Assembly: GCA_011032825.1 (NCBI GenBank)
Contig: JAADJZ010000001.1
Location: 620,001-684,000, forward strand
DNA: 64,000 nucleotides
Source of the DNA: Massariosphaeria phaeospora
Lineage: Eukaryota; Ascomycota; Dothideomycetes; Pleosporales
Direction of reading: 5' to 3'
The notes under the pieces were generated by a model. The model ran no database searches and was not told the DNA's origin. It saw nothing but the letters and a program-made list of their open reading frames with translations. Made by a program: the position numbers and the translations under genes. Numbering within the stretch: position 1 is the first letter of the stretch; every line of letters starts with the position of its first letter. Below are positions 8,841 through 51,660 of this stretch, in pieces.

Positions 8841-10482
8841 CTGCCTATGGGCGAATGGAGAATTCTTTCTCAATCCATGTAGATCGCTAGTGGATTGTCC
8901 ACCAACCAATCAGCCTGGGCCCACTACTCTATGAATTCAAGCATGCATGACGGATATCTCAGTCAAGGACAATACGGATCACATTTTGGCTTAATGCTCT
9001 CTCCCCACCTGCTTACAGAAGTGCTATACAAACGTAATCTTTGAAGATATACTGCGCCTTTCAGAGAGAAAGAAATCTTGCTAGAATTCATCCATAAGCT
9101 CGCAATCTCGCATCAGCGCCTTCGATGCAGCCCACGCTGGAGGGTCAAACCAAAGTCCCCCTAGGAACGCAGAGTGCGGCACCGCTGTGGTAAAATACTT
9201 TGCTATACGTATTCTGTTAGCAAACGCAGCACAGAGCGGGTGGCTCACGTACCCATAACGCAATACGCAAACGAGTAGAAACTGGTCAGTGCTTGGTCAT
9301 GTTTCAAACCTTCACTCTCAATCCAACCTGTAGTTGCATCCATCATTGACGTTGCTATTGACGAGCAGATTGCGTCAGTCAACAGCTCAGATTATTTGTA
9401 TGCAAGTGAAAACTTACTATGCTGAGGAAAGGCGTACTGATACAAAGATCGGAATACGTTGAGTAGAAAATGATCGGCGTTCATATACTCTTCGAGACGC
9501 TGCTCATTGTGTATCGGCTGGGTGTCTGTATACCCCCTACTAATTTCCAGTATCATTGGTGGGCACAGGATTATTGCCAGCAGCTTATCAGAATACATAT
9601 ATTCTGTCATGGCACCCGCAGCACATGCGATGTGGGTCGCGGGGCGGGTATCCTTGTCCAGATAACTGGGACCATCGTACTCAGCCGCCCCTGTCCCGTG
9701 CGGCAATTTTGCGACAATCCATTTGGATCCTGCAGAGTCACTAGCAGGTTTGAATGCAGAGCCTTTGCAATAGAAGTAAAGACTGTCGGATGGTTGGTTT
9801 CGGTGTCTCCAGTCCCATCGGCTCAACAAATGGAGGGCTTGTTCTGTCAATAGTTAGAGCGAGTTTAGGAATTAGCAAACGGGGATGCTGCCAACCTGAT
9901 AACTTCGCAAACGAATTTTCTGTAGGTTTCTTGTAGAGTATTTCGTTGGTGTTGTCGAGTTCTTCTATAGGATTTTGGATCCCGTCGTGTACAAAGCTTA
10001 ATGCTTGAGAAATCCTCCCCATCGTGTTTTGGACAAGACTTTCTGTGCCTTTCGGATAACTACTACAAGTGCTTTTATCGATCGAGTATGCTTGAGCCCA
10101 TGAAAAGAATAGGCAGATGACTAGAAGAGAGCGTAGGATGCTTGTTAGCAAAAGCATCGTGATAGGGGGCTGCGCGAACGCAAACGTGTGAAAGAGTAGT
10201 AAATGTAAAGTAAATGAAAAGAGTGTGCATACGAAGTGCTTATGAGCAGGAACAAACTGTCTATCTAAACAAACTGCAACTAGTATACCCTCAGAGGTGA
10301 CATCTTCACAACAACAGGTTACCAACAAGTTACTGCAGTTGCGTGTTGGACTTAGACGGCTGGGGGTAATTGTGCTAGAGAGTAACTTAGAGAATTGTTA
10401 ACGAGCACCCTAGTAAAGGCCATTGAACGAATTAGCGATGCTGCTACTTACGCTACTTACTCTACTTAGCATAACTAAAGGA
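8840..10482. repeat. Duplicated segment, copy 1 (carries secreted-protein gene A)
   Basis: The same segment recurs at 42,403-44,024 and 50,104-51,660. Shared landmarks are the 3' flank (ACGGATATCTCAGTCAAGG at about 8,948), the four-exon gene, and about 330 bp upstream of the gene with the block TGACATCTTC.CAACAACAGG. A mutated version of the far 3' flank (8,845-8,945) is found at 21,570-21,626 and 23,762-23,808 and belongs to copy 2. The upstream end of this copy meets a foldback MITE at 10,483. Confidence 0.85.
9081..10157 (-). CDS. Secreted protein of a three-member family, gene A (303 aa, four exons)
   Basis: Exons on the minus strand are 10,157-9,896, 9,843-9,418, 9,354-9,253 and 9,202-9,081; they join in frame to 303 codons plus stop. 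The introns are 52, 63 and 50 nt, end in CAG, TAG and TAG, and have CTAAC/CTGAC branch sites. The ATG at 10,157 gives a classic signal peptide (MLLLTSILRSLLVICLFFSW, cleavage after AQA). The mature protein begins YSIDKSTC and has Cys at shared positions (STC, FYCK, IACA, ILCP, RDC), with blocks FYSFAY and PQH. The overall order (SID..TC start, YCK, ILCP, a long helix, then FYSFAY...YFTT) resembles deuterolysin-like M35 metalloproteases, but the helix that would hold HExxH reads FLLNVFRSLYQY, so an enzyme is not supported. Secretion is inferred. Host-directed effector activity is a guess from context: rapid divergence and location in repeat-rich DNA. Confidence 0.85.
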
Positions 10483-10684
10483 GTACGCTGGCGAATGGGT
10501 AGGGGGTACCCATCGATGGGTATAGGTTGGGTTATGGGTCGCACAGACCTTGGGTTAAAGTTGGGTTATGGTTACTCTAGCGTAGGTAGGGGTTAAGTTA
10601 GAGTCATCAAAGCGTTGGGTTATAGTTTGGTTAGGGTAATCGAAGCTTTAGGTTAGAGTTGGGTTAAAGGTTACATCTAGGTTA
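10483..10684 (+). repeat. Telomere-like foldback MITE, copy 1 (truncated by insertion)
   Basis: It starts with GTACGCTGGCGAATGGGTAG and continues through GGGTACCCATCGATGGG and many GGGTTA/GGTTAGGG-like words. The first half is nearly identical to the full copy at 38,616-39,009. The right half is missing because a Fot1-like terminal repeat begins at 10,685 after a TA. Confidence 0.75.
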
Positions 10685-10878
10685 ACGTAAACCACCAGTA
10701 ACCCGGCCAAACCAGTAACCCGGCCAAAAAATGCCAAGACTACGAACACTAACCTGCTCTTACTATGCTTACACCTACGAACGCGCAATTACGTAAACAC
10801 AAAGGCAGACTCCTCCTTGCCCTTAAAGCTTTTAGAGCCGGCAAATTCCAAAGCTTCCGCGCAGCTGCACTGTGCACA
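10685..10878 (+). mobile_element. Fot1/pogo-like transposon fragment: terminal repeat plus transposase N-terminus
   Basis: After the target TA (10,683-10,684) the end reads ACGTAAACCA, then a 17-nt motif CCAGTAACCCGGCCAAA twice in tandem (10,695-10,711 and 10,712-10,728). An ATG at about 10,765 opens a frame beginning MLTPTNAQLRKHKGRLLLAL and continuing KAFRAG.F.SFRAAA, the N-terminal helix-turn-helix region of Fot1/pogo transposases. It breaks off at about 10,878, where the repeat of unknown type begins. Confidence 0.7.
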
Positions 10879-13257
10879 GTCTTTTACTGTTATTGGTGTT
10901 TTGCAAAATACCTTGAGGGTGGAACGTGCGTAGGGAGTTAGTAGCGCTAAACCGCCGAGACATCATGGCCATAGCTTTTTTGTATGGAGATCCATGTAAT
11001 GGAGGTTGTAGAGCCCCTAGGTTATTGAATATATTCACCTTTTGCCCTATATCGACGTTAGTAACCGTTATTTTGGTGTTTTATAAGATAGTTAACTGTG
11101 ATAGGCGCCCGGGGCTACTTCGGATGGACGAAAACGGCACCCAACGAGCTTCTCGAGCTTGGCGGCTACCCGTAGCATTCGACGCAGGGAGGAACCCGCT
11201 TACAGCGAAAAAAGCAGGCAAACGCAAGGCGCCTATCAACGAGACCCAGCCAGACAATGGGACACCAAAAAGGCAGGTAGCAGGTCTAGGCAAGTTAGCA
11301 AACAAGGCCCCGCGAGGATGCCCCTCGAGCTAACGCCTAGCAACGATCGCGCTCCCGTCGAGGATCCGGCGCCCACCGGGGCGCCCACCGAGCCGACCGA
11401 GGACGACGATCTCAGCGACGTTTTTAACGACGCTGGTCCTGGATTTGGCGACGTAGAGGGCGCAAATGAGACTGCTGCGGTCGAGGAGATAGCGCCTACT
11501 GTCGAGGAGAGGCCACAGAGCGTGCCTGCGGGCAGAGATTTCGCAGGCAGAGATCTCGCGGCGAGGCAAGAGAGTGTACGGGAGATAGAAGCAAGCCAGC
11601 GAGAGAGGGCTATAAGGTGTTCTAGCAATGACGTCAGCTAGAGATTGTTTGTAGGTCAAGATGAGGCCAGCGATGACGAGCTAGCTAAGTATCGAGTTGC
11701 CGTAGGTGTACGCTGGCGAGCAGGCGTAGGCAACTTAGAAAAGGGCGTTATCAACACTGCGTATAACAGCGACTCTCTGCTGGTTGTAGAGATCGAACAG
11801 TAGAACCTTTGGCAGTAGGTTAACCGTACGCTCGCTGAGCAGCGGAAAAATATGCCTGTAGAGGTTAGCAGTGTAACAGCCACTGTTTATTATGAAAAGA
11901 TGACAAGAAACGATCGCTGGGTGATCTCGCTGCGCAGAGATTGCCCAACGGACTTCCACAAAGTAAAAAAGGCGCTGAGGAGAATACTTGATCGATACTC
12001 ATAGCCACCGAGCCTGGATTTTGAGCTGCTGCTAGTAGCAGCTGCGCTAGCAGCGGATGCTCCTGCGGCAGCTGGTTCTGCACCGGCGCTATCTCAGCGG
12101 CTACGGATTGCCACAAATATACAAGAGCAAGGGCTTGCCAATACGATCGAGGCTAGGGTTGTTAGCAACGGCTATGCGATGGAGATTCGAGATGAGTAGC
12201 AGTGTAGAAATACGAACTGCAGAAACAACAAATATACTTGCTAAGTAGCCAGGAAAGCAAACGGCAGGCCAGATCGCTGGGAAAATCATTTTCCCGTTTC
12301 CGGCAACATCATCGCCATATGGTGTAAAGAGATTGACGGCGGCTACGGCAGCGTAAAATTGCCGTCGGATCATGTACGATCGACGCTTTATTGAGCAAAA
12401 AAGCAGGCAAAAAAGGATCGCGAGCGAAAAAAGCAAAAGGAGGCACCTAACGACGCCGCCGGCGTGGGGCAATCTCTGCAGCAGATGCAAGGAGCAATTA
12501 TGTCTACACAAATGAGTAAGCTAATTCGGCTGCAGAGGGGGCAATACAGCTAGCAACCAACATTGCTAGCTACGCTAAAAGCGCCTGCAAGTGCTACACG
12601 TAGAGCTAGCCCTAAGGCTGTTGATCTTACAGATGTCCTACCTAGCGCAGAGAGGCCTCGTTGGGTAGACCTGGATAAGGCAATTCCTAGGTCGCTTTAT
12701 TACCACGCAAGGAACTTCTTTACGTACTAGGCAGCTAACGATCCAGCTGTCCCAAACGCAGTCAAAGCGACAGTCTATTACCAATTGTTTCGACGGGAGA
12801 GGTAGACTCTCAATTAAATAATAGACGATACGTATGGGTTGACTATGGAGATATAGTGTAGCAACTACAAGGCGCTACTTTCTCTCCTCTCTGCGATAAA
12901 GCGCAAGGCAGCTAAGTAGTGTAAGCAGTATCAAGGCCTTACAGAGAAGCAAAAGCGTAAGGCTCGACAATATAACGCTGCCTACAGAGATAAGACTAAG
13001 TTCGACGCGAAGCAAGGTAATATGCTAGCAGAGTTGAAGAGTTTTGGCGATAGCAAACACAGTAAGCTGAGCAACTATTCAACACTACTACTCTTCCACG
13101 TAATTGCATAAAAACACTGCGCAATTATTGCTAACTTTATCGCAGCTACCTAGTAATTTATATAGACTTTTTGTAATGACGCTAGGTGTCGCTACAGCTA
13201 CCTAAGAGTTGATTTTTGAAGCGTCCGAAGTTACCGTTGCTAACTCTAGATGTCATC
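10879..13257 (+). mobile_element. Repeat of unknown type, copy 1 (degraded)
   Basis: This segment is a mutated copy of 45,292-47,678. It opens with TATTGGTGTTTTGCAAAATA and ends near GATGTCATCTA. The encoded protein is the same as in copy 2 but is broken by a one-base deletion in an A-run near 11,267 and by many TAG/TAA codons, mostly at Trp or Gln positions of the partner. No terminal inverted repeats or target duplication could be identified. See the entry for copy 2 for the protein. Confidence 0.7.
11127..13250 (+). pseudogene. Unknown repeat-encoded protein, broken copy 1
   Basis: Starts at an ATG matching the start in copy 2 (MDEN.{2}QR.SRA) and is colinear with it. It has a frameshift near 11,267 and stops near 11,640, 11,800, 11,818, 12,002 and beyond. 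Conserved blocks include VRWRAG.GNLEKG, TAYNSDSLL, WVISLRRD.PTDFHKV, NHFPVSGNIIAIWCKE and a C-terminal block W.DLDKAIPR..YY.A.NF. A stop at 12,241-12,243 sits at the same position as a stop in copy 2. No function can be assigned. Confidence 0.6.
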
Positions 13258-13271
13258 TAATCTTTACTTAT

Positions 13272-13741
13272 TGTTACGATCAATAATCCGCCAAGCCGCT
13301 AAAAGAAGAAGATGCTCTTACCTTGGCGCTTAAGGTAACAGAGCACGGCTATACCTTGGGTAAGCTTAGCACGTAAGCTAAGAACCTCTCTCAACGACAC
13401 AGCTTCTCTATATACTCTCTCTAATCTTACGCTCTCTATAGCACCTTAAGAGCAAAAAATTAAAGTGCTTTTATTAATCTGCTAGCTCTGTAAAAGCAAG
13501 GAGATTATACAAAGCACACTTACGTATATAGTCAAGACAATAAACTCTTATAGCTTATTGTTTTTAATTTTAATTACTTAGTTAACTTTTACTTTTACTT
13601 TTATACTCTTTGCAGAACGAAGCTTGCTACTGCTTTAGTATTAAACGCTATACAACTTCTTTAGTTTATTAAACTTACTTAATCTCTAAAAACTAACTTA
13701 AGCTTAATAAACAACTTTTCTAAGTTCGCTTAGCCTTTACA
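13272..13741 (+). repeat. 5' LTR of retrotransposon A
   Basis: 470 bp, starts TGTTACGATCAATAATC and ends TTCGCTTAGCCTTTACA. Same length as the 3' LTR; homologous to the LTRs of element B. Confidence 0.88.
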
Positions 13742-16700
13742 TATTAAAGACTTCTAAGATAAGTAATACTTTAATAACTACTTCTCTTTATACTCGCACT
13801 AGCGGTATAAAAGTAGCGAAGCTTAACTTTTACTATAAAGATTGCTTAAAGCTAGAAAACTAGTTACTCTAGTTTAACTTTTTTTTTAAGTTTAAAAATG
13901 ACTACGTTAACAACGTTAACAAGACATCTCTAATAGCTTTTTACATAAAAAAAACAGCTTTTAAGTAAGTTTAACTTTACTTAAAGAAGTACTTAAATAG
14001 CAACAACAACAAAAACATAATTACACGCATGTTCAAAAATCGCGCTGTGTTTAAAAACAAATTGCAACAATTTTACGCAATCGCTAACAAACCTGCTATT
14101 GCAAAAAAAACTATTTAACAAATGCGCTAAACTAAGTTAGCTAGAAACTACGCTAACTTGTTTTAACAGTACTCTATTTAAACTAACTAGAACAACAAAG
14201 CACTTATGCGCATGTACAAGCAAAGGCTAAAAAACAATATTAAAGCAGAACTAATGCGCTTTAGAGCAGCTACAGACACTTTAAACAACCTAATTAAAAA
14301 ATTAATTTGCTTTAACAATAAGTTGTACAAACTTGCAATTAAAACGCGAGCTAAAGCAAAGTTTTACGTACTAAAAAGCAATAGAAGTTATATACTTAAC
14401 ACTAGCTAGCGTTAAGTACAAACTTAACACTTACGCTTAACAAGTGTATACAACTTAGCTTAAAAATATAAACTAATGCACCTTAACAACTTTAACAAAA
14501 GCAAACTAATTAATAAACAATTAAAGTATAGCAAGAAAACAAGGACTTGCTATAATTGTAGCAAGCTAAGCTACATCTCTAGCAACTATTACTAAAGAAA
14601 CAAAGTTGTTTAACAGTTAAACGTACTATCTAATGCTACAAATAGTATTAATAAAAAATAAAAAGTAATTACTTTTATAGATGTTAAGAGCTAAAGAGAA
14701 CAGTTGCCTAAAGAAACAAGTTTAGCTAAAAGAAAATTGCTTTGCAACGATACTAACTTTTTAATAAACAAAAAATACGAGTTACTAGACGAGCAACTAA
14801 ACCTACCAAATACTACAAAACATAAAAACTAGATTATTAAAAAAAAACAAGTACGAAAAATCTATTAATCTAACATTTTACTTTAAGACAATGTACTTGA
14901 TTACAACGAAGCAGTGTAAAAATATTTTAACAAGCTTAACTAATAGCTTACAAAAAAAAACAAACAAGGAATTTATTAAAAGCTCAAAAAAACAAAACGC
15001 TCTAAAGAAAACATTTTACTTTTAAATCTAAACAAATTAGCTACTAAAGAACACTAGCACGATAAAGCTGCAAAATTTTTTTGACAAAGCTTTAAAAGCA
15101 ACTGCAAGAACGCGAACTTCTACAAACTACAGTACTACTTAAACTACTAGAATCTAGAACACACAAAAATGTTATAGATAGTGTGCTTTTACAACTACTA
15201 TCTTACTTACTACTTAAACAAGCAAAGCACGAAATAGTTCTTTAAAAAAAAAAGCTAATTTTGCTTTTAAAAGTAGTTTAACTGCAAAAACAACACTTGC
15301 AAATACTATTTATAAAACAAACGCGACATACTGCACTTTTTTAAAAAAAACAACTTAGCAAAACTGCTTGCATTGCAAATGCTTGTAAACAACAACTGCA
15401 ATTAAGCTTAATAGCAAACTTGCTTACACTCTAACTGCGCACAGCATTAGACTTTTAAAAAAGCTAACAAATTTAGTACAAAGTTTTTTTTAAGCTAGCA
15501 ACGCTTAACTCTAAAGTTAAACAGATTAACGTAATTAATTTAGCAAAACAAATTAAGCTTTTAGTAAAGCTTAATAGTTACTTAATAAAAGCTTTAATTA
15601 ACACAAAAGCACAGAATAACTTTGTTTTTGCTTAAGCAGTATTTGTAGCTAGCTTACAACTATTAAAGAAACAACAGCTTTATTTACTTGCTAGTGCTAA
15701 CGAATAGCTTATACAAGCGCAACTAATAGTTATACACAAAATACATAATGTACCGTTGCACATTAAATAATACTAAAAAAAGTTAGTTTTTAACGTCTTT
15801 AGACTAGCTATTTACGACATTATTTTAAGACTTTTTTAGTTAAAAAAGCATAATTTCTAGATTAACTAAAGAAAGAATACGCTTTTACTAGAGTGTTGCA
15901 AAAACAGCGCTTCTAACACTATGCCTGCGCATTAGCAAAGTTTAATAGCAAATAAAAAAACAATTAACGTAATTGCATCGACAAAAGACAGCTTTAAAAA
16001 ACAAAAGTTCAACTTAATAAATACCAACTCAAAGCCTTTAAATTAACAAGTTAGAGTAAAAAAAAAAATTAGCGCACTTTTAAGAATACTCTACGAGTAT
16101 AAAGAGTTTAGATATTTCTTTTAAAAAGTAGTAGATGCAAAAGTATTACTAAAACACAAACTTTAAAACTACAAAATTGTTTTATAAAAAAAAAAGCAAC
16201 TAACTTTTAGCTTAATTTATAGACTATTAAAAAAAGAGTTAAGCACACTTTGCAATTACATTAAAAATAACTTAAAAAAAAGTTATATACAACTATTACA
16301 GTTACTTGCAAAATACTTAATTATTTTTGTACTAAAAAAAACAGTGTATTACAACTATGCGTTAACTTTTAAAAGCTTAACAACATTACAGTTAAGAATT
16401 AATACTTTTTACTAAATATTATAGAATTACAGAATTAATTATTTTACGCAAAAGTCTTTACAGCGCTTAACTTACAAAATAGTTACTACTTTATTAAAAT
16501 TAAAAAGAGTAAAAAATAGAAGACAGCGTTTTAAACGAGATATAAACATTACAAATACACTATTATGCTATTTAAGCTTACAAATGCTTTAGCAACTTTT
16601 TAAAAGCTTACTAACAACGTGTTAAAAATGCATTTAAATATCTTTGTTGTTGCCTATCTAGACAACATTTTTATCTATTTTAAAACTTAAAAAAACTATG

Positions 16701-19364
16701 TTAAACATGTTAAAACAGTACTAAAGTGCTTTAACAAGTTTAACTTTTAACTTAAACTAAAAAAGTGCGAATTTTACAAGCGCAAAGTTGCATTTTTTAG
16801 ATACGTAGTAAAAGCAAACAGAGTACGCATAAGCAAAAACAAGATTAAAGTAGTTAAAAAATAGCTACAACTTAAGAACGTTAAGGAAATACAATTTTTC
16901 TTAAAGTTTCTAAACTTTAATTAACAGTTTATTAAAGATTACTTAAAAATTGCTATACTTTTAACAAAGCTTACGCGAAAGAATACAGCCTTTGCATAAA
17001 GCAAAAAAGCAAAAAAAGCTTTTTAACAGCTTAAAAACGCAAGCATTAGTTTACTATGCTTTTAGATATTCTAAGCAAAACAACTTTTACGCTTTAAAAC
17101 TAATGCGTTAGATTTTGCGCTAGAACAATGTGCTAGTTAATTGCACAAAGACAAATAGCACTCTATTGCTTATTACTTACGCAAGTTTTTAAAATTTAAA
17201 AAACAATACAACGTGCACGACAAAAAGCTGCTAGCTATTGTTGCATACTTACAGCATTAAAGAGTATACGCAAAAAGCTACTTAAAACTCACAATATTTA
17301 CAAATTACAAAAACTTAGTTAATTTTACAACTACTAAAGTACTTAACTAAAAGTAAGTTAGATAGTTAGAAATGCTAAAATAGTACAAGTTTAAAATTGT
17401 GTACACTCTAAAAAAAGATAACAGCAAAGCTAACGCTTTTAGCCGAAAACATAATATTGCTAAAACAAAAGAAATTATCAACACCGCAATACTTAAGGTT
17501 AACTAAAACAAATTACTAAAACTAGCTAGAACGCTAAACGTGCTCTTAAAAACTACAATTACAGTTTTAAAAAAATTGCAAAAAGCAATTATACAACAAC
17601 ATTACAATAACTTAGTTTACAGTTACTTTAAAATTACACGAACAATAAAACTTATTAAGCAAAACTACAAGTTTAGCAGAATAAAAAATAAAGTTACTAC
17701 AATTGTTAAAAAATGTGCAAACTATTAGAAAAACAAACATAGTACCTACGCTTTTTACGAAGAAATGCAAGCTTTAGAGCTACTAAATAAGCTTTAGATT
17801 AACATTTTTATAAATTTCGTAACAAAATTGCTTTTGTTAAAAAACTTTGCTATAAAAATAGCTTACAACGCTATTATAGTTATAGTTAACTAATTTACTA
17901 AGTACGTAAAAATAATACTTTTTAAGAACACGTACACTGCACAACAACTAGAATTTATTTTTTTAAATTAACTTATTAGATACTATAAAATACCTAAATT
18001 AATTATTAGTAACAAAAACAAGCTCTTTACATTAAACTATTAGACAACTCTGTTAGCTGCAATTAAAACGAAACGCAAGCTATTAACAGCGTACTATCTA
18101 CAAACAAATAGATAAACAAAAAAAACAAATTAAACTATAAAAACATATCTAAGAATATACAGCAACAAACAACAAACTAATTAAGTAAAACTTCTACTAA
18201 TAGCATAGTTAGCATATAACAACAAGTTGTTTAAATTTACAAAACAAATACTGTACTACGCGAATTACAAAAAACACTTACATTTTTTTAAAAAAACGCT
18301 TTTAAGCGCAAAAGCTAAAACTGCTATAAAAGTAGTAAAAGAGCTTAAAAAAGTACATAAGCTACTACAAAGTAAACTTAAAATAGCGCAACGCTAAAGC
18401 ATTTTATATGTTAACTAAAAACAAAAAATAGCACTTTAGCTAAAGAGAAAGGATAGAGTTTATCTTTTTACAAAAAATTTGCGCACTAAACAACTAAGCA
18501 AGAGTCTAGACAACGTTAAAGTTAAACTATTTTTAATATTAAAGCAACAAAGCTTAGTTAATTACAAATTAAACTTGCCTAAAAACGCAAAGATTTACTT
18601 AGTATTTTACATATTTTTGTTAGAACTAGCTAACTTACAAACGCTACTCTAGCGAACCTTTCGCTATAAAACTAAAAAAAAAAACAAATTTAAAGTTAAA
18701 AAGATTATTGCACACTAAGTTGTAAATAACTAGAAAAAATACCTAGTTAAATAGTTAAGCTACCTAGATAGCGAGAATACATAAAAACTAAACACAAACT
18801 TTACAAACTGCTACTAGATCTTAGCATAGTATTGTTAAAACTAGTTAGGTACAACAAAACGTTGCTTTTTTACACTTTGTTACTAAAGCTATCTAACGCA
18901 CTCTAAGTAAAAAAAAACATTGCTAGACTATTAAAAAAACTCGCAGTCGCTTTTTGCTATTTTAGCAACGAGATGCTTGCTTTTTTAACTGCAATTGCTT
19001 TTGCTGCACGCTTTGCATTTTCACGCAGCGCTTACTTAACTTTTGCTGCTTTTTTTTTTACTACTTTTAGCTAAGCCTAAAAACGCTCGCGCTCTTAACA
19101 AATAAGCACTTATTTATTTTCTAAAATCTAAATGTTATAGTTTTTAAGATTTTAACAATTACACTTATTACACTGTTTTAAACAAACATGCACTTTGCAA
19201 ACTAAGCTCGCAAAACAACAGCTTTAGCAAGCAACAAGCATAATGTTTTTAAACAAGTTAATAAATATTGCAAAGTTAAGACGTTGTGTAGTACTGTTAG
19301 AAAAAAAAGCTTTTAGCATAGCAAAAAAAAGCTTCGAGAACGAAGCATAGAAAGAGAGAAATAG

Positions 19365-21569: not shown

Positions 21570-21626
21570 TAAGCGAATAGAAAATTCTTTTTTAATCTAT
21601 GTAAAACGCTAGTAGATTGTCTACTA
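21570..21626. repeat. Mutated 3' flank of duplicated segment copy 2, first piece
   Basis: GCGAATAGAAAATTCTTTT... corresponds to GCGAATGGAGAATTCTTTC at about 8,850. The differences are almost all G-to-A and C-to-T. The piece is cut at a TA by pogo C2 and continues at 23,762. Confidence 0.75.
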
Positions 21627-27811: not shown

Positions 27812-29659
27812 ACGTAATCTACTACCGAAAGCGACAAACTACCGAAAGCGACAAAATCTGCCAAGGCTGCTACTCCTCTCATTATCTTGTTATGCCTCAA
27901 CTAAACAACGCGTTATTACAGCAAAACGAAGGAAGGCTTTAGATTGCCCTTGCAGCCTTTTAAGCTGGCCAATTCTGAAGCTATCGAGCTGCTGCTGCTG
28001 CTTTTAACGTTAATTACTATACTCTCTCTAAACGCGCCAAAGGAACTCTATTTTGCCTTGAATCACCTGCCAACGGCTATAAGCTTACAGCGACTGAAGA
28101 GCAAACGATCGTCCGATATATACTTAACCTCGATTCGCGAGGATTCGCGCCCCGGCTGTGTGAGGTGGCAGATATGGCTAATAAAGTGCTAGGTGTGCGC
28201 GGTAGGGAGCCAGTTGGCAAACACTAGGCTAAGAGATTCGTAACGCGTTCAGATTAGCTTAAGATAGCGTTCAATCGAGCCAAGGATAGGCAGAGAATAC
28301 TCCAAAAGGATCCAGAGATAATTGGCGCGTGGTTCAAGCTGGTGGAGGACACCAAAGCCAAGTACGGCGTCCACGACGACGACGTGCACAACTTTGACGA
28401 GACTAGCTTCCAGATGGGCGTAATTGGCTCCATGAAGGTCGTTACAAGCTCTCAAAGACGTACTCGACCTAATCTTATCCAGCCAGGCGATCGAGAGTGG
28501 GTAACAGTCATCTAGAGCATTTGCGCCGCAGGGTACGCGATCCCGCCGTTTATTATCTACAAAGGGCGCGTTTACATCTCAGCATGGTACGAGGAGGACT
28601 CTATACCTAGCAATTAGAAGCTCTCAGTCTCTAAGAACGGCTGAACAAACAACGCTCTTGGTCTTGAGTAGTTGAAGCACTTTGACGCGCATACAAAGGC
28701 GCGTCAGGTAGGAAAGTATCAGCTGCTCATTTTGGACGGCCATGAGAGCCACCAATCTCAGAATTTCAAAGACTATTGCCTTGAGAACAAGATCCTTACG
28801 CTCTGCATGCCGGCCCATTCATCTTATATCCTTCAGCCGCTGGATGTGGTCTGCTTTTCGCCGCTGAAGCTAAAGTACTCTCAACGCATTTGGGACTTGG
28901 CGCGCCGGCGCGTTTTCTATATCAACAAAGAAGGCTTCCTGCCAGCCTTCAGAGGCGCGTTTTTCGAGGTGTTTACAACAGAGAACTGCAAGAAAGCTTT
29001 TAAGGCCTTAAGGCTAGTCTCTATCAACGCGCAGGTAGTCCTTGATTGTCTTGAAGTACGGCTGTGTACCCTACTACTACCTTCCGCACTAGAAACGCCG
29101 TGGCAGTTAAAGACTCTAAGCAATACGCTTGAATTTGGATCGCAATCAAAGCTAGTACGCGATTCTATTACTAGATCGCTAACTTCAGCGCAGAGCGGCT
29201 TCTTCTAGCTTGTAAAAGGAGCTAAATTAATGCTGCATCAGAACGCGCTTAAGGACTACCGTATCAAGGAGCTTAAAGATCAATTAGCAGAGACAACCAA
29301 GCGGAAATCGCGCAAACAGAAGCGAATTCAGACAGGTAGTACGATAGAGTATAGTAACGAATTAGCGTAGGTAGCTGCTAAAGCGTCTACAGCGCCTTAG
29401 CTATCAAAGAAAGCGCGTAGTAGAGAGAGTTAAGAAAAAGCACAACTAGCTCTACGGCGCTGTAAAAATTGTGGTGATACAAGGCACAATGCCCGAACCT
29501 GCCAAAAGAATACAGAAAAAGCTTTTAAATTAGATGCTAGCACGACGTACGCAGGCTTCTTGTTTAATAGCAATGAAATTAAAAATGCGTAACATAAGTT
29601 GGTGCTGCCAAGCTTTTTGTCGCTCTTAGTGGTTTGTCGCTTTCGGTAGTAGATTACGT
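27812..29659 (+). mobile_element. Fot1/pogo-like transposon F (1,848 bp) inside retrotransposon B
   Basis: Flanked by TA (27,810-27,811 and 29,660-29,661); the uninterrupted target is preserved in retrotransposon A near 16,310. The ends read ACGTAATCTA followed by CTACCGAAAGCGACAAA twice (27,822-27,838 and 27,839-27,855); the right end has the inverse with the second unit diverged. It is far less mutated than its host, so it is the younger insertion. Confidence 0.9.
27892..29592 (+). pseudogene. Fot1/pogo (DDE_1) transposase with C-terminal zinc knuckle, in-frame stops only
   Basis: From the ATG at 27,892 to the TAA at 29,590-29,592 is 567 codons in one frame, with no net frameshift. In order: N-terminal helix-turn-helix (AL.AF.AGQF.SYRAAA), CENP-B-type HTH (ATEEQTIVRYILNLDSRGFAPR), then DDE: NFDE near 28,395, ILDGHESH near 28,731 and LQPLDV near 28,835. 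At about residue 523 a CCHC knuckle (CKNCGDTRHNARTC; C-x2-C-x4-H-x4-C) closes the protein. The internal stops fall almost all at expected Trp codons (for example NG.TNN and LE.LKHF), i.e. TGG to TAG or TGA. It is non-functional as it stands. A truncated second copy lies at 44,146-45,291. Confidence 0.88.
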
Positions 29660-42021: not shown

Positions 42022-42402
42022 TATTGCTCAACGCTAAGTCGGATTTTGCTCACACAAAGACGCCCAACGCCTAGCTCTTGAGCAATCTCGCTGTTGTTAT
42101 GGCCAGCTTCAAGGCGCCATAAAACGCGCTGAAGCAACTTATGCTCTAACCTATGGCCAGTCGGCACAGGCAAACGATTTGAGGCCGCCGCAGGCATCTC
42201 ATAAAGCAAACACTGACGATAGTAGGTGGATTGTAGATGAAGAGTCAATAAGATCATCAAGCGCCTGCAAAACTAGGCGGGCGAAAATGCCTCGCCGGAA
42301 GCACCGGATCCGAACCCCTATCGGGTATAGTCACCCCTTTTGACCTCCTACCCCGCGCCCCTTACTACTTTTGGGGTGTATGCGGTATTTCGGACTGCAC
42401 AA

Positions 42403-44024
42403 TAACGGATATCTTAGTCAAGGACAATACAGATTACATTTTAGCTTAATGCTCTCTCTCTACCTGCTTACAGAAGTGCTATACAAATACACTAGAGGAA
42501 TTGAAACTGCAACGTAATCTTTGAAGATACACTGCGTCTTCTAGAGAAAAGAGAAACATGCTAGGATTCATCCATATCATCGCAATCTGTGATGCGTCGA
42601 AACTGGCTTTCTTGGGGTCGGAGCCGCCCTACCTACATGTCCTGTCGACGAGTAGGCGCAGTGGAAGCTAACTGGGTGACGCGGAAGCTCACGCCGTGAC
42701 GAGAGTGGTGCATGTTGTTTTTGGGGGCGCTCATAAGTTCCCGCCTGGCGGGCATTCTGCCAGAAACTGCTTCGCTTCACCCAACGCTCGAGGGTCATAC
42801 CAAACTCCCTCTACGAACGCAGAGCCCGGCACTTTTGTGGTAAATAACCGTGCTATACGTATTGTGTTAGCAAGCGCAGCACAGGGCGGGTGGCTTACGT
42901 ACCCAAAGTGTGATACGCAAACGAGTAGAAATTTACTAGTGCTCTGTTTAGGTCTAAAGCTACACAGTCGGTCCATCCTGTAAGTGCATCCGCACCTGTC
43001 GTTGCTGTCGACGAGCAGATTGCGTTAGCCAACAACTCAGATTATTCGTATGCATGTGAGGACTTACTATGCTGAGGAAAGGTGTAATGATACATCAATC
43101 GGAATACGTTGAGTACGAGATGATCGGCGTTCAGGTATCCGTGGAGAGTCTGCCCATTGTTTATCGGCTGGGTGTCTTGATACCCCCGAGTTATTTCCAG
43201 TATCATTCGTGGGCACAGGATTATTCCTAGGAACTTATCACTAAAGACAGATGTTACCATGTCACCCTCAGCACAGGCAATGTCGTGCGTCGCGCGGGAA
43301 CCCTGTGGCCCATAACTAGGACCATTGTACTGAACCCTCTCCCCATGGCCGGACCCTCTTGTGAAAACCCATTTGGTTCCTGCCCCGGCGTTATCGGCAG
43401 GTTTAAATACATCGGCTTTGCAATAGATAATGAAGCTGTCCATTTGTTGGTTGTGATGGATCCAGTTGTATTTTTGTAACATATGTTGGGCATTTCCTGT
43501 CAATAGTTAGAGCGAGTTCAGGAATTAGCAAACGGGTATGCTGCCAACCTGATAGAATCCTAAACAAATCGGCTGTAGGCGTCTTGTAGAGAATTTGGTT
43601 GGTATCGTCGAGTTTTTCTTTAGGCTCTTGGTTCGGGTTGCTTGCCACGTCTAATGCGTCAGCGATCCGCAGCATCGTCTGTGAAATCAAATGAGCTGTT
43701 GTGTCATAATATCTGTTTCGACAAGTGTACGCATCAATCGAGAAAGCTTGAGTCCATGAACTGAATAAGTAGATAACGGCAAGAGAGCGTAACATGCTTG
43801 TTAGCAAAAGCATCGTGATAGGGAGCTGCGCGAACGCAAACGTATAAAAGAGTAGTAAATGTAAAGTGAATAAAAAGAGTGTGCATATGAAGTGCTTATA
43901 AGCAGGAACAGACTGTTTGTCTAAACAAACTGCAACTAGTATACCCTCAAAGGTGACATCTTCGCAACAACAGGTTACCAACAAGTTACTGCAGTTGCGT
44001 GTTGGACTTAGACGGCTGGGGGTA
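42403..44024. repeat. Duplicated segment, copy 2 (main part, carries gene B)
   Basis: Starts at AACGGATATCTTAGTCAAGG and runs through gene B and its upstream DNA to GACGGCTGGGGGTA, where a pogo terminal repeat interrupts it. The DNA upstream of the ATG is nearly identical to copy 1 over about 200 bp. The rest of its 3' flank lies at 21,570-21,626 and 23,762-23,808, beyond the nest. Confidence 0.85.
42731..43813 (-). CDS. Secreted protein of a three-member family, gene B (305 aa, four exons)
   Basis: Exons on the minus strand are 43,813-43,549, 43,496-43,068, 43,004-42,903 and 42,852-42,731; they give 305 codons plus stop. The introns are 52, 63 and 50 nt, at the same positions and phases as in genes A and C. 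The signal peptide is MLLLTSMLRSLAVIYLFSSW, then TQA. The mature start FSIDAYTC, IIYCKAD, IACAEG, ILCPRM and FYSFAY are shared with the paralogues; extra Cys are at TDC and AEC. The helix before PQH reads HLVLNVFRLMYH, again without HExxH. The reading frame extends upstream of the ATG, but that extension lies in the conserved promoter DNA and would hide the signal peptide, so the ATG at 43,813 is preferred. The open frame is intact although transposons around it are destroyed. Confidence 0.85.
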
Positions 44025-44145
44025 CCGTGTCCGTGCGCGTGATGTGCCACCCTCATCAAAAACAACAGAAGTTCAACACGCGATAATTCTACCAATATGG
44101 CTCTAATAGACGACGCACTTGCAAAGATAGAATTTTTAAGACTTA
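44025..44145 (+). mobile_element. pogo-type transposon fragment H: terminal repeat and transposase start
   Basis: After TA (44,023-44,024) it begins CCGTGTCCGTGCGCG, like the end of element K. An ATG at 44,097 opens MALIDDALAKIEFLRL, comparable in position to the transposase start of K. It is cut at a TA by Fot1-like fragment I after 49 nt of coding sequence. Confidence 0.65.
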
Positions 44146-45291
44146 ACGTAAACGATCACCGAGTGGCCGATATCACCGAGTGGCCGGAAATCTCTTGGCA
44201 CAACCAACTCATCTCAAAGAACATCAAATTAATCGCTATCGAACAAGGAACCTGCGTACGTCGTGCTAGCGCCAGATTCAGAAGCTTCTTCTGTATCCTT
44301 TTGGCAGGTTCGGGCATTGTGCCCTGTATCACCACAGTTTCTACAGCGCCGTAGAGCTGGTTGTGCCCTTTCTTGACCCTCTCTACCACGCGCTTTCTTT
44401 GATAGCTAAGGCGCTGTATACGCTTCAGCAGCTACCTGCGCTAATCCGTTACTGTACTCTATCGTACTACCTGTCTGAATTCGCTTCCGTTTGCGCGATT
44501 TCCGCTTGGTTATCTCTGCTAATTGATCTTCAAGCTCCTTGATACGGTGGTCCTTGAGCGCGTTCTAATGCAGCATTAATTCAGCTCCTTTTACAAGCCA
44601 GGAGAAGCCACTCTGCGCTGAAGTAGGCGATCTAGTAATAGAATCGCGTACTAGCTTTGATTGCGATCCAAATTCGAGTGTATTGCTTGGAGTCTTTGAC
44701 TGCCACGGCGTCTCTAGTGTGAGTGGTGGTGGTGGGGTACACAGCCGTACTTCAAGACGATCAAGGACTACCTGCGCATTGATAGGAACTAGCTTTAAGG
44801 CCTCAAAGGCTTTCTTGCAGTTCTTTGCTGTAAACACCTCAAAAAACGCGTCTCTAAAGGCTAGCAGGAAGCTTTTCTTGTTAATATAGAAGACGCGCCG
44901 GCGCGCCAAGTCCTAAACGCGTTGGGAGTACTTTAGCTTCAGCGGCGAGAAGCAAACCACATCTAGCGGCTAGAGGATATAGAATGAATAGGCCGGCATG
45001 CAAAGCGTAAGGATCTTGTTCTCAAGGCAATAGTCCTTGAAATTCTAAGATTGGTGGCTCTCATGGCCGTCTAGAATAAGCAGCCGATACCTCTCTACCT
45101 AACGCGCCTTTGTATGCGCGTCAAAATGCTTTAACTACTCAAGACCAAGAGCGTTGTTTGTCCAGCCGTTCTTAGAGACTAAGAGCTTCTAATTGCTAGG
45201 TATAGAGTTCTCCTCGGACTACGCTAAGATGTAGACGCGCCCTTTGTAGATGATAAAAGGCGAGATCGCGTACCCTGCGGCGCAGATGCTC
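44146..45291 (-). mobile_element. Fot1/pogo-like transposon fragment I (same family as F)
   Basis: The right (3') end after TA (44,144-44,145) reads ACGTAAACGA, then TCACCGAGTGGCCGATA / TCACCGAGTGGCCGGAA with 17-nt period. The minus strand encodes the C-terminal half of the F-type transposase, including the zinc knuckle region (about 44,300-44,360) and an open stretch at 44,909-44,565. It stops abruptly at about 45,291, inside the region equivalent to 28,510 of element F, where the repeat of unknown type starts. Confidence 0.8.
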
Positions 45292-47678
45292 TGGATATTG
45301 GTGTTTTCCAAAACACCTTGCGGGTGGAACGTGCGCAGGGAGCAGGTAACGCCGAACCGCCGATACATCTTGGTCATAGCTTTTTTGTATGGGGAACCAT
45401 GTTTTGGAGGTCGTAGAGCACCTAGGTCATCAAATCTAGCCTATATCAACGTTAGTAACCGCTTTTTTGGTGTTTTGTGTGATAACTAGCTGTGATAGGC
45501 GCCCGGCGCTACTTTGGATGGACGAAAACAGCAGCCAGCGGGGCTCACGAGCCAGGCGGCCACCTGTGGCATTCGACGCAGGGAGGAACCCGCCCATAGC
45601 GAAAAAAGCAGGCAAACGCAAGGCGCCTATCAGCGAGACCCAGCCAGACAATGGGACACCAAAAAAGGCAGGCAGTAAGTCTAGCCAAGTCAGCAAACGA
45701 GCTCCCGCGAGGATGCCTCTCGAACCTACGTCCGCCAACGATCGCGCCCCGGTCGCAGCGAGCGCGCCCCCAGTGCCCATTGAGGCGCCCATCAAGGCGC
45801 CCATCGAGGCGCCCATCGAGACAACTGAGGACGACGAGCTGAGCGACGTTTTTGACGACGCCAGTTACGATTTTGGCGACGCAGAGGGCGCAAACGAGAC
45901 AGCTGCGGTCGAGGAGATAGCGCCCGTTGTTGAGGAGCGATCGCAGCGCGCGCAGGCGGATCCTAGCAGGCGAGAGAGTGTACAGGAGATGGAGGCAAGC
46001 CAGCGAGGGAGGGCTATAAGGCGTTCTGGCAATGACGTCAGTGAGAGTTTGTTTGTAGGCCAAGATGAGGCCAGCGACGACGAGCCGCTTGAACACCGAG
46101 TTCAGGTGGGTGTACGCTGGCGAGCGGGCCTAGGCAACCTTGAAAAGGGCATTATAAACACTGCGTACAACAGCGACTCCCTGTTGGTAATACAGCTCGA
46201 GTCGGATGACCTTTGGCAGTGGGTTAACCGTACGCTTGCTGAGCAGCGGAGAAAAGTGCCTGTAGAGGTTAGCAGTGTAACTGCTACTGTATATCATGAG
46301 AAGATGAGCAAGGCGGATCGCTGGGTGATCTCGCTGCGCCGGGATGAGCCAACAGATTTCCACAAAGTACGGAGAGCGCTGAGGAGGATACTAAGTCGCT
46401 ACTCCTGGCCACCAAACCTAGATTTTGACCTGCTACTAGTTGCCGCGGAGTCGCTGCTGATGGGTCCTACGCCTGGCGCTGCTGCTGCGGGTCCATCTCA
46501 GCGTCCACGGATTGCGACAAATATACAAGAGCAAGGACTTGCTAATACGATTGAGGCTGGGATAGTTGGCGACGGCCACGCGATGGAGATAAGAGATGAG
46601 TGGCAGTGTAAAAGTACGCTCTACGACAACCATAAATATACCTGCTAGGTGGCAGGGAGGGCGGATGGGAGGCTAGATCGATGGGAGAACCATTTTCCGG
46701 TTTCCGGCAACATTATCGCCATATGGTGTAAAGAGAGCGACGCCGGCCACGGCAGCGTCAAATTGCCGTCAGATCATGTACGATCGACGCTGTACAGAGC
46801 AAAAGATCAGGCGCAAAAGGATCGCGAGCGAAAAAGGCAGAAAGAGGCGCCTGGCGACGCTGCGGTTGTGGGGCAAAATCTGCAGCAGATGCAGGCGGCG
46901 ATAATGTCTACACAAATAAGTGAGCTTATTCGACTGCAGGCAGCGCAGTACAGTACACAGCAACCGCAGCAATTGACGCCACAGAGACCACCTACTGTAG
47001 CGCCTTAGTTACGATACAAACCTGCCGCGGATATGAACGTAGACCTCACTAATCTAGCACCTAGTGCGCTTGCTGCGACGTGGACTGATCTAGATAAAGC
47101 AATCCCTAGACGATTTTACTACTATGCAAAGAACTTTGTCACCTAGTGAGCAGATAATAATACTGCTACACCAAACGCAGCTAAACAGGCAATCTATCAC
47201 CGGATTTTTCGACAGGAGAGGTAGACTATCAACCAAGTAATGGATAACTCTGATTATGGGATGTCTATGGATATATAGACGTACAACTACAAGGCGCCTA
47301 TTGCTCTACTCTCTGCAATAAAGCGTAAGGTAGCTATCTAGAGCAATTAATATAATGGCCTTACAGATGATCAAGAGCGTAAGGCGCTGCGCTACGACGC
47401 TACCTACCTAGAGGAGAATAAAGTTAACGTTGAGGCAACCCACGATACACTAGATGAACTAGAAAGTTTCAATAATAGCCGTCACGGTAAGTATCGCTAC
47501 AACACTACCACGTCGCCACATTATTGCGTAAAAATACTGCGCGATTGTTGCTAACAGTATCGCAGCAAGCTAGTAACTTGTATGATATTTTCCAATGGCG
47601 GTAGGTGTTGTTATAGCGACCTAGGGGTTGATTTTTGAGGCCCCCGGAGTTACCGCTGCTATCCCCGGATGTCGCCAC
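45292..47678 (+). mobile_element. Repeat of unknown type, copy 2 (better preserved)
   Basis: About 2.4 kb, also present at 10,879-13,257. The left end carries an 18-bp palindrome GGTGTTTTCCAAAACACC (45,299-45,316). The right end is GGGGTTGATTTTTGAGGC... to GATGTCGCCAC. No terminal inverted repeats and no target duplication are visible. In both copies the left end interrupts or abuts a Fot1-like transposase gene. The encoded protein is described separately. Confidence 0.7.
45518..47008 (+). pseudogene. Unknown repeat-encoded protein, copy 2, open except for one TAG
   Basis: The ATG at 45,518 opens 376 codons to a TAG at 46,646-46,648, after which the same frame continues to 47,008; further colinear coding sense with stops runs to about 47,640. 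The N-terminus is basic (KKAGKRKAP). Then come a Pro/Ala/Ile repeat (EAPIKAPIEAPIE), an acidic stretch (EDDELSDVFDD), a globular region (VRWRAGLGNLEKG, TAYNSDSLL, WQWVNRTLAEQRR, WVISLRRDEPTDFHKV) and NHFPVSGNIIAIWCKE. A basic and Gln-rich tail follows. The profile suggests a nuclear, DNA-binding protein, but I do not recognise the family. A stop occurs at the same place in copy 1 (TAA), so it is either an old shared nonsense change or part of an unrecognised intron. Confidence 0.6.
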
Positions 47679-47682
47679 AGGT

Positions 47683-48714
47683 TCAACTATCCAAGATATA
47701 GCCACAATGTTTGAAGAACCCCTCCACCTGACCTATCTCGCCATAGCAGCACTGTTGTACGGCAAGCTCTAGCGCGTAGGCAAAGCTGTCAAACAGCTCC
47801 GTCTCTTTCTGATGCCGCTTGAGCCAGGACTTCAACACCTTGAAGGATTGCTCAATCGGATTGAAATCTGGCGAGTATGGCGGCAGGAACTCTAGCTGCA
47901 CGCCTGCCTTATGGCACAGCGCCGCGATACTCGCTGCTCGATGGATAGAGGCGTTATCAAGTATAATAACTAACCGCGGCAGTGGAAAAGGGTTACAGTG
48001 CGGGAGCACGTGATTGCGCAGGAAATCCTCGAATATATCGCTTGTTATTCCACCTTGAAACACCGTGTGGGTGAGGTAACCGTCAACAGTTAACGCCGGC
48101 AGCAAGCTCTATCTCTCAGAGCGTTTCATTAAGTAGGCGACGTCAACTGGCGTATTGATAGGAGACCACCCATACTTCCTATCGCCAGTTCTCTCGTTGG
48201 CAGCAGACTCGTCAATACAGACGATCTGATCAGCTCGCTAGGTTTGAAGCCGGCATCTAAACACGGCGCGTAGAGGCTCGCTCCTCTCACGGGCGTGTTT
48301 CGTCGCCCTCTTTCTGCTCCACCTGGCTCTCTCGAGGGCTCGATACACTGTAGCGGGAGATGCCCGCGTATCGTACTCGTCGTACAAAAACGCCTGCATC
48401 TCCTCCAGATAGGCACTCGGCTTCTCATCCAAAAACGCAAGGAGGCCATCTATATGACCTTGCAACAACAAAGGGAGGCGACCAATCCGTACAAACTGTG
48501 GGGCGTACGGCTCGCCAAACACCTCAAGGTTGAGTCTGTATTTTCGAATACTGTTATCACTGACGCCTAGTTCCCTTTGTATGTCGCAGTTCCTGTAGCC
48601 AGCCTCAATCCGGTTAACTACCCTCTGCAGAAGGTCTGCCTCGAGCTGTTTGCCACCTCCTCTCTCCATTTTGATCACCTGAACAGGTATGGGGCGTAGC
48701 CTCACGAAATACAC
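47683..48714 (-). pseudogene. Tc1/mariner transposase J, DD34E, two in-frame TAG stops
   Basis: 344 codons in one frame, no frameshift. N-terminal HTH domains are at residues 25-60 (LLQRVVNRIEAGYRNCDIQ, ELGVSDNSIRKYR). The catalytic core is CIDESAANERTGDRKYGW (first Asp), IILDNASIH (second Asp) and YSPDFNPIEQSF with the Glu exactly 34 residues after the second Asp. The only breaks are two TAG codons (about 48,236-48,238 and 48,106-48,108), each where Trp is expected (RLQT.RADQ and KRSER.SLL), i.e. TGG to TAG. The translation start may be the internal Met of MERGGGKQLEAD. No clear terminal repeats were found. It is the least damaged transposase in the window. Confidence 0.85.
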
Positions 48715-48799
48715 GAGATTTGAATGACTTTGGGACGATATTGATTGAAAAACAGGAGAGATATCATTGATTCATTTTGCCTCATACAAAATTGGCTTG

Positions 48800-50103
48800 T
48801 GGCCGATGTTTAGCCTATCTAGCGCACGGACCTACCTCAAGGTCTTTTGAAAACCACAATATTACCGCCTCTAGGTCAAGTAGAAGCAAGCTAGCACTTT
48901 AAAAGCCTTCTTAGATATTGCTTTTAGTAATAGCATCTTTAAAAGCACCAATAAAGCACGGCAGGAACTTGAGTTTGGTAATGTAGTTAATCCTGTTGCG
49001 CATCAGGTTCTCGGCTTGGCGCCCATACGCCTTCTTCAACGGCAAGAAACAACCTACATCAAGAGGCTGCAAGAGGTGCGACAAGTAAGAAAGTATGCAA
49101 AGAGTAATAATCTTGTTCTCCTTGCAGTACTGCTAGAACTTAAGCAAGTCGTAGCTCTCGTAGCTGTTAATAATAAGCAGACGATAGTTTTCTACAGTCC
49201 TCTTCTTTGTGTAAGCGTCAAAGTGCTTTAGCTACTCTAGACTAAGCTTGTTTGTCGTCTAGCCATTCTCAGAGACTGCAATAACCTAGTCGCGAGGTAG
49301 GTTATCCTTCTTGTACTAGGCAAAGAGGTAGTTCTTGCCTTAGAAAATAACAAAGAGTGGAATTGCTTACTTAGTTGCGTTGATACCTTGGATTACCGTA
49401 GTCCACTTGCGATTGCCCTGCTAAACGCTCTTCGGCCGTCCTCAACGCTTAGAGCCTGTAACTACTGCTCCAGTTGATATCATGCCTATTATAAAGCCAG
49501 ACTCGTTAAAGTTGTAAGTGTCTTTGTTAAGGATACTGTACTTGGCCTTTGTATTCTCTACAAGTTGGAACTAGCTTTGTATAACCTTAGGATTCTCGCA
49601 GAGAGCTCGCTTGTAGTCGTACTTGCGATTAAACTTAACTTAAAGCTTAAGGCGACGTTTGACGAAGGTTGAAGCCTAGTTGACGCCCACTGGTGGTTGG
49701 CCACGCTCCTTGCGCAGTAGATCAGCCATATCCTTCACAGCAGCGAGCCGTGGCGGAAATCCTCGCGCGTCAAGATCAAGTATATGCTGAACAATCACCT
49801 CCTCCTCTGTTGGACGAAGATTTGCTAAGTTAGGCGCGCAATCGCGTTGAAACTGCTTTCTAGCGCGTCGATCGCTAAATGTTGTTTGAGAGACGTTGTA
49901 GATAGCTGCAGCGCGTCGTTGAGAGAGAGTCGCGTCTTGTTTAATAGCCTGAAGCGCAAGCTGTATACGTGCTTCTTTTGAATTCAAGTCGCTCATGTTG
50001 TTGTTAAGCTATCGCTATTCTACTGTTCGCGACAGTACGTTTTGGTGGGGTCTTGGCAGAGTGACCGACTCGCCCGTGTGACCGACTCGCCCGTGGGGTA
50101 CGT
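48800..50103 (-). mobile_element. Fot1-like transposon G relic
   Basis: The right end (minus-strand start) next to TA (50,104-50,105) reads ACGTACCCCA, then CACGGGCGAGTCGGTCA twice with 17-nt period (50,061-50,077 and 50,078-50,094 on the plus strand). The transposase starts with MSDLNSKEARIQLALQAIKQ and a Psq-type HTH (AAAIYNVSQTTFSDRRA), open from 49,996 to 49,676. It then continues through many stops as a DDE_1 core (NFNESGF, SENG.TTNKLSLE, LQPLDVGCFLPL) to about 48,845. The left end is not defined; it abuts Tc1 element J. It inserted into duplicated segment copy 3. Confidence 0.78.
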
Positions 50104-51660
50104 TATAGATTACATTTTGGCTTAATGCTTTTTTTTTACCTGCTTACAGAAGTGCTATACAAATACACTAGAGAAATCAAAACTACAACGTAATCTTTGA
50201 AAATACACTGCGTTTTCTAGAGAAAAGAGAAACATACTACGGTATATCCATACGGTCACATGCTGGCACCGCCGCTACAGCTGCACTGTCGAAATAATTC
50301 CCCCAGAAGAACGCAGAGCCTGGTTGCATTGTTGTAAAATACAGTGCTATACGTATCGTGTTAGCAAGCGCAGCACAAAGCGGGTGGCTTACGTACCCAT
50401 AACTTTATACGCAAACGAGTAGAAATTGGTTAGTGCTTGCGCCAAACGCATCTCTACAACCTCGTTCCAACCTTCATTTGCGGCTATGAATGACGTTGCT
50501 ATCGACGAGCAGATTGCGTCAGCCAACAACTCAGACTATTCGTATGCAAGTAGAGACTTACTATGCTGAGGAAAGGCAACCCGATACAAAATTCGGAATA
50601 CGTTGAGTACGAAATGATCCTTCTTAAAGTAGTCTTCGAGATGCTGGTTATTGTTTATCGGCTTGTTGTCGTTATACCCCTGGCTGATTTCTTTCATCAT
50701 TGGCGGGCACAAGATTATTGCCAAATACTTTTTACTATAGATATATTGTAGCATGTCACCCGTAGCACAGGCGAGGTGAGACGGCCGGTGGGGGCTAGTC
50801 TTTGCCTTATAACTAGGACCGTTGAATTTCGCCACATTTGGATTATTCTTGTTCGATTTTGATGAAATCCATTGGTTTCCTGCATCGTCATTGATAGGTT
50901 TAAATGCATTGGCTTTGCAAAAGAAGTAAAGGTTGTCGACTTGTTTGTTATCATGTTGCCAGTTCCATCGCCCTAGCAAATTGTCGGCGTTTTCTGTCAA
51001 TAGTTAGAGCGAGTTCAGGAATTAGCAAACGGGTATGCTGCCAACCTGATAGAGTCAGAAACGAAGCTTCTGTAGGCGTCTTGTAGGTTACTTCGTTGGT
51101 ATTGTCGAAATATTCTATAGGCTTTTGGATCCCGTCGCTTACAAAGCGTAATGCTTGAGAGATCTGCTCCATCGTGTTTCCAACAAGAGCATTCGTGGCT
51201 AAGACAACGTCTTCGGCTTCTTCACACGTGACTTTATCAATCGAGAAAGCTTGAGCCCATAAACAGAAGAGGCAGATGACGGCAAGAGAGCGTAACATGC
51301 TTGTTGGCAAAAGCATCGCGATAGAAGGCTGCGCAAACGCAAACGTGTAGAAGAGTAGTGAATGTGAAGTGGAAGAAAAGATTGTGCATACGAAGTGCTA
51401 GTCAGACTGTTTATCTAAACGAACTGAAACTAGTATAGCCTCAGAGGTGACATCTTCGCAACAACAGGTTACCAACAAAGTACTGCAGTTCCGTGTTGGA
51501 CTCAGACGGCTGAGGGTCAATGTGCTAGAGGGTAACCCAGGGAGTTGTGAATGGGCAAACAAAGCAATGGCTAGCACCCCAGTGAAGGCCATCGGACTAT
51601 TACCGATGCTGCTACTTACGCCAGTCGCTCCACTCAGCATAGCTAGCTATTCAAAACCTT
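50104..51660. repeat. Duplicated segment, copy 3 (carries gene C)
   Basis: Begins within the shared 3' flank (AGATTACATTTTGGCTTAATG) just after the TA where Fot1-like G inserted. It runs through gene C and its upstream DNA to about 51,660 (CTCAGCATAGCTAGC), slightly further upstream than in copies 1 and 2. Confidence 0.85.
50237..51316 (-). CDS. Secreted protein of a three-member family, gene C (304 aa, four exons)
   Basis: Exons on the minus strand are 51,316-51,046, 50,993-50,562, 50,498-50,397 and 50,346-50,237; they give 304 codons plus stop. Intron sizes and phases are identical to genes A and B, and intron 1 (52 nt) is identical in sequence to that of gene B. The signal peptide is MLLPTSMLRSLAVICLFCLW, then AQA; the mature start is FSIDKVTCEEAED. 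Shared blocks are YFFCKAN, LACATG, ILCPPM, FYSFAY and PQH; the helix before PQH reads HFVLNVFRILYR. The C-terminus is the most divergent part (FFWGNYFDSAA). Secreted by prediction; function unknown, possibly an effector-like protein. Confidence 0.85.

Follow-up and report, generated by a model that had tools for sequence, protein, structure and literature searches.

Why should the introns and promoters of a gene family be better conserved than the exons that they serve? The question is raised by three genes, here called A, B and C, in a window of 64,000 nucleotides from the genome of Massariosphaeria phaeospora (contig C1:620001-684000; the genome comprises 42 Mb in 51 contigs), and by two further members, D and E, that we found on other contigs. 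An earlier note on this DNA had ascribed the pattern in A, B and C to strong diversifying selection on a secreted protein. The best explanation, and a probable one, is that the secreted family is indeed diversifying under positive selection, with the copies in addition being partially homogenised over short tracts.

The exon-fast, intron-slow pattern of A, B and C is real. The three genes share intron positions and phases, with introns of 52, 63 and 50 bp in all of them and every one in phase 1. Recounting gave the same values as had been counted by eye for B and C, with 0/52, 7/63 and 3/50 differences in the introns (10/165 together) and 40 of 102 in exon 3, which aligns without gaps; the A/B and A/C introns each differ at 15/165 positions. 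Nonsynonymous divergence exceeds intron divergence in all three pairs (P = 2e-9 for AB, 2e-7 for AC and 6e-15 for BC), these tests sharing sequences and so not being independent. In a three-way alignment the shift in tempo coincides with the splice sites, and there are exon blocks, such as that encoding FYSFAY, in which A, B and C are identical at every codon position. In two pairs the first two codon positions have changed more than the third, differences at positions 1, 2 and 3 numbering 105, 93 and 75 of 303 for AB, and 115, 99 and 89 of 298 for BC. Transversions are abundant among the exon differences and transitions among those of the introns (P 0.006, 0.0008 and 0.002 for AB, AC and BC); for BC there are 115 transitions and 166 transversions in the exons compared with 9 and 1 in the introns. 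Upstream identity of about 90% or more, as first claimed, stands for A/B (94%; 12/200 differences in the first 200 bp) but is somewhat too high for A/C and B/C, which reach only about 87-90% (20/191 and 24/191).

Genes D and E provide the best control. A genome search with a single protein gave 10 matches at five places, which are A, B, C and the two new members, both with the same three introns, all in phase 1. The segment common to D and E covers about 3.5 kb in D, from -1719 to +1796 relative to the ATG, with about 260 bp of it present only in D. It thus offers a long stretch of equally old non-coding DNA, against which exon acceleration can be measured directly. The 1.7 kb of upstream DNA, in which there is no open reading frame (ORF) of more than 100 codons, differs at 103/1682 sites (103/1684 if end positions are included), and two stretches within the upstream DNA, with divergence (K) of 0.045 and 0.083, match only D and E genome-wide. 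Nonsynonymous sites differ at 142.5/689 (dN 0.242), about four times the divergence of this non-coding flank in the same duplicated segment (Fisher P 3e-23). By region, K is 0.13-0.34 for the D/E exons and 0.11-0.20 for the introns, introns 2 and 3 (K 0.199 and 0.120) not being better conserved than exon 3 (K 0.132). The introns as a whole (23/174) are more diverged than the flank (P 0.001) and equal to synonymous sites (20/123, P 0.5). For D and E, therefore, it is the flank that is the more conserved part, and the introns are not specially frozen.

Codon site models, which assume no recombination, support the view that positive selection acts on about a third of codons, in the mature protein. 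Over 319 codons a single ratio (M0) gives omega 1.08, and M2a improves on M1a with twice the log-likelihood difference (2dlnL) at 72.2, assigning omega 4.0 to 31% of codons; M8 against M8a gives 71.7. With two- and three-base changes allowed, M2a is still preferred (2dlnL 25.4, P 3e-6). Removing codons near gaps leaves 224 codons and values of 57.1 for single hits and 21.4 with multi-base changes, and the mature part alone (208 codons, multi-base changes, gap-near codons removed) gives 18.0 (P 1e-4).

Selection acting independently on sites does not, however, account for the distribution of synonymous changes. Among codons for identical residues, synonymous differences (28/101 for AB, 38/113 for AC and 26/91 for BC) exceed those in introns (P <= 1e-4), and they are concentrated beside replaced codons. 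Where neither neighbour is replaced, synonymous divergence per site is 0.129, 0.255, 0.096 and 0.090 for AB, AC, BC and DE; where both are, it is 0.385, 0.574, 0.646 and 0.387. The sheltered codons of AB, BC and DE are near intron or flank level, those of AC being higher. A gradient of this size was reached in 9, 2, 0 and 0 of 150 simulations under single-hit M2a, and in 6, 1, 0 and 0 of 150 with multi-base changes, for the same four pairs, and the clustering exceeds what independent-site selection yields. The affinities of A, B and C also depend on region. C is most often the odd one out in the 5' flank (21/35) and in exons 3-4 (40/82), B in exon 1 (37/80), and A in the introns (10/20) and 3' flank (14/25). 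These counts vary significantly between regions (chi2 41.7, 10 df, P 9e-6), with the reservation that unequal selection can bias the exon counts, and they do so for the non-coding regions alone (chi2 13.3, 4 df, P 0.01). The mosaic supports short-tract exchange without proving it, and together with the synonymous clustering it suggests a degree of homogenisation among the copies. Homogenised introns, named at the outset as a reason to doubt diversifying selection, would therefore qualify that reading without refuting it. These results suggest that diversifying selection alone is an incomplete explanation, and that short-tract homogenisation has been resisted by selection.

The mechanism that we favour would work as follows. 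In the mature protein, replacements would become fixed at several times the rate of change in nearby non-coding DNA. The signal peptide, certain structural residues, the introns and the proximal promoter would stay near background level. Short-tract recombination, presumably gene conversion, would partly homogenise the copies and so reset the introns and flanks, along with runs of residues that have not changed. Any tract that wiped out selected replacements would be lost, so that synonymous sites beside replaced codons would remain old and divergent. Behind diversifying selection on a secreted protein there is usually an outside partner, and an external partner of this kind (a host, competitor or other organism) may drive diversification here; the role of host-interaction effector suggested in the earlier note is a putative one, drawn from sequence. 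More tentatively, and with rather less confidence than in selection plus partial homogenisation as such, we propose that homogenisation is guarded by selection, with recombination between paralogues resetting introns, promoters and unchanged blocks over tens of bases while patches of selected replacements escape.

Several observations weigh against this interpretation. On average dN/dS does not exceed 1 but lies close to it: pairwise Nei-Gojobori (NG86) estimates are 1.09 for AB, 0.74 for AC, 0.96 for BC and 0.93 for DE, all with intervals that span 1, and between the A/B/C and D/E groups the ratio is 0.53-0.85. Diversifying selection is supported by the site models and the D/E flank contrast, not by the average ratio. 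Third codon positions have diverged as much as positions 1 and 2 in AC and DE. The codon models were run with custom scripts on five sequences from one genome, and their posteriors are naive, not Bayes empirical Bayes. All 43 sites whose posterior exceeds 0.9 lie in alignment columns 29-314, with 0/43 in columns 1-28, the signal peptide, but the cut at column 28 was picked after the sites were seen. Synonymous clustering is uneven, permutation tests giving P 0.15 for AB, 0.0016 for AC, 0.0002 for BC and a borderline 0.065 for DE, and the contrast between no and two replaced neighbours, with gap-near codons left out, giving P 0.04, 0.11, 0.0006 and 0.02. Finally, there are no significant runs of the same odd one out inside exons (lag 1: 116 compared with 106.6 expected, sd 8.4), so that no clear conversion tract is seen within them.

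Could homogenisation instead be the main cause? The exons would then reflect how old the duplications really are, with introns and flanks repeatedly overwritten and only modest positive selection. The excess of exon synonymous over intron divergence, the clustering of synonymous changes, the regional mosaic and the elevation of the D/E introns above their flank all speak for this view. We nevertheless consider it unlikely. D and E are on separate contigs. They share a low-divergence flank of 1.7 kb upstream and some 0.47 kb downstream, and conversion would need to have spared the gene body alone; moreover, the class of codons with omega > 1 is still needed when multi-nucleotide changes are allowed.

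That the introns and promoters are instead conserved for function, in splicing, regulation or as intronic RNA, beside near-neutral exons, seems very improbable. In its favour, introns are closer than four-fold sites when members of A/B/C are set against D/E, for both of the pairs compared (AD and CD). Yet leaving out splice-site bases barely alters intron divergence (AB 14/138, AC 15/138, BC 9/138), the low D/E divergence extends over the whole 1.7 kb of ORF-free flank, and neutral exons would lack the omega > 1 class. An intronic RNA was rejected, as there are no Rfam matches at 8000-52500. Least credible of the three is that clustered multi-nucleotide mutation produced the exon differences and so imitates selection: two-base changes do give a much better fit (M2a lnL from -4303.5 to -4287.2) and bring omega of the selected class down from 4.0 to 2.9, but selection persists, such mutation would strike introns too, adjacent-base differences do not stand out against those at other short lags, and the clustered synonymous changes are mostly transitions (18 transitions and 6 transversions at codons with two replaced neighbours, gaps excluded, over four non-independent pairs). 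Repeat-induced point mutation (RIP) cannot explain the exon change, since the exon differences are rich in transversions; a RIP-like excess is seen in the D/E flank, where 36/77 classifiable transitions lie at YpA compared with 197/812 CpN sites (P 1e-5).

The family appears to be restricted to this species, with five genes for proteins of about 300 residues. In a profile search all five of the matches at E <= 10, among 3268 candidates, were from M. phaeospora; the search was word-based, with limited reach, and distant relatives may be missed. The public entries for A, B and C are hypothetical proteins of this fungus (Pleosporales), and D and E have public counterparts in P0005, which matches D in length, and P0004, which is E with 25 additional N-terminal residues. 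The proteins are probably secreted, judging from an N-terminus that, read by eye from the alignment, resembles a signal peptide. All five proteins keep the same four cysteines of the mature part (C31, C116, C166 and C186 in the numbering of protein C). None of the five proteins has a Pfam match over cut-off, and no sequence relative came to light in the PDB, where the weak matches are to a reductoisomerase and a designed coiled coil; two AlphaFold predictions have a predicted local distance difference test (pLDDT) score of 37.7 and 51.0, and structure comparisons with Foldseek and VIA gave no usable match. By eye the order of helices and strands is like that of M35/aspzincin (PF14521) and Asp f 2/PRA1 (PF13933), and the stretch ALTNFYSFAY resembles NADSY..A of M35, with which hhalign pairs it. 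A degenerate M35 protease was nevertheless rejected: HExxH occurs in 0/5 proteins, and the profile comparisons are non-significant (probability 1.6-1.7% and 0.2%). Protein C does have HRxxH at residue 159, but this lies elsewhere in the protein. A strong match between profiles A4 and A5 was discarded as circular, because A5 contains an A4-family protein.

The family is a further case of exon-accelerated secreted genes of a kind already known. In the phospholipase A2 genes of snake venoms, introns and untranslated regions (UTRs) are more conserved than exons, with dN near or above dS; unlike the family described here, these encode animal venom enzymes of known activity. The same contrast of exons with introns and flanks is described for families 8 and 30 of the CSEPs of Blumeria graminis (Pedersen et al. 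2012, PMC3582587), which are likewise under diversifying selection, with homology that ends among repeats no more than about 1 kb from the exons. The Blumeria proteins have an intron at a common position and a link to ribonucleases, and belong to an obligate plant pathogen (PMC3582587), whereas the M. phaeospora genes have three introns and encode about 300 residues with no recognised fold; synonymous clustering is not reported in the CSEP section of that paper. In the SSSGP genes of the Hessian fly, promoter, UTR, signal peptide and intron are conserved while the mature coding region diversifies, and positive selection with concerted homogenisation has been proposed (Chen et al. 2010, PMC2955719). 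Those genes differ in being from an insect, in encoding small proteins and in forming a tandem cluster, and their signal-peptide coding region is called highly conserved (PMC2955719), whereas here it is merely spared of high-posterior sites.

The features on which this analysis rests are collected in the table.

Table. Members of the family, their conserved flanks and an associated insert (positions within the 64,000-nucleotide window unless a contig is given).
Feature	Position	Strand	Remarks
Gene A, 303 aa	10157..9081	minus	splice model; identical in length and sequence to public protein P0002
Gene A exons	9896-10157, 9418-9843, 9253-9354, 9081-9202		262/426/102/122 bp
Gene A introns	9844-9895, 9355-9417, 9203-9252		
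Gene B, 305 aa	43813..42731	minus	splice model; public P0003 has 81 more aa at the N-terminus and is otherwise the same
Gene B exons	43549-43813, 43068-43496, 42903-43004, 42731-42852		265/429/102/122 bp
Gene B introns	43497-43548, 43005-43067, 42853-42902		
Gene C, 304 aa	51316..50237	minus	splice model; identical in length and sequence to public protein P0001
Gene C exons	51046-51316, 50562-50993, 50397-50498, 50237-50346		271/432/102/110 bp
Gene C introns	50994-51045, 50499-50561, 50347-50396		
Gene D, 301 aa	C45:230048..228968	minus	genome search and splice model
Gene E, 298 aa	C51:403668..404746	plus	genome search and splice model
Conserved 5' flank of A	10158..10368	minus	homology to B ~211 bp, to C ~320 bp
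Conserved 5' flank of B	43814..44024	minus	
Conserved 5' flank of C	51317..51645	minus	329 bp in common with A
Conserved 3' flank of B	42428..42576	minus	88.6-89% identity to that of C; parted from B by the insert
Dispersed insert overlapping 3' end of B	42582..42740		

The public start of B lies in a conserved non-coding flank (43814-44056) that happens to be open, and translation more probably begins at 43813, at the shared ATG. The insert at its other end encodes roughly the final twelve codons of B, and one further copy of the insert was found, at C23:1645304-1645465 (87%). A short inverted-repeat element lies downstream of D (C45:228481-228649 and 228766-228937) and occurs at tens of genome sites at least. 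Between A and B is an AT-rich block (13001-39000), with GC of about 0.23-0.37 per kb except for 28001-29000 at 0.49, a composition as left by RIP on repeats. A repeat of about 2.4 kb adjoins both B (45296-47673) and A (10891-13254), the two copies being 75% identical; it has 13 genome matches including itself, some near contig ends, and its 393-aa ORF gave no match in a Pfam search. The idea of telomere-like repeats upstream of A was rejected, as GGGTTAK occurs in the window about as often as expected (11 compared with 10.8). Between B and C lies the remnant of a DDE transposase (DDE_3, HTH_33; 47683-48714, minus strand), and beyond C a 2421-aa ORF (53073-60338, minus strand) with no Pfam match over cut-off.

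Non-coding DNA that is more conserved than the exons beside it is a strong sign of diversifying selection, to which the usual objection is that the introns have been homogenised. This case adds to the known systems a flank of the same age as control and the signature left at synonymous sites by replaced neighbours, and an exon-accelerated family is added from a fungus not known to us as a pathogen. The clustering of synonymous changes is a testable signature for the interplay of selection and gene conversion. If homogenisation is in fact guarded by selection, synonymous sites would mark, patch by patch, where conversion is not tolerated, and the contrast between sheltered and exposed codons would map the selected patches of these proteins without any outgroup.
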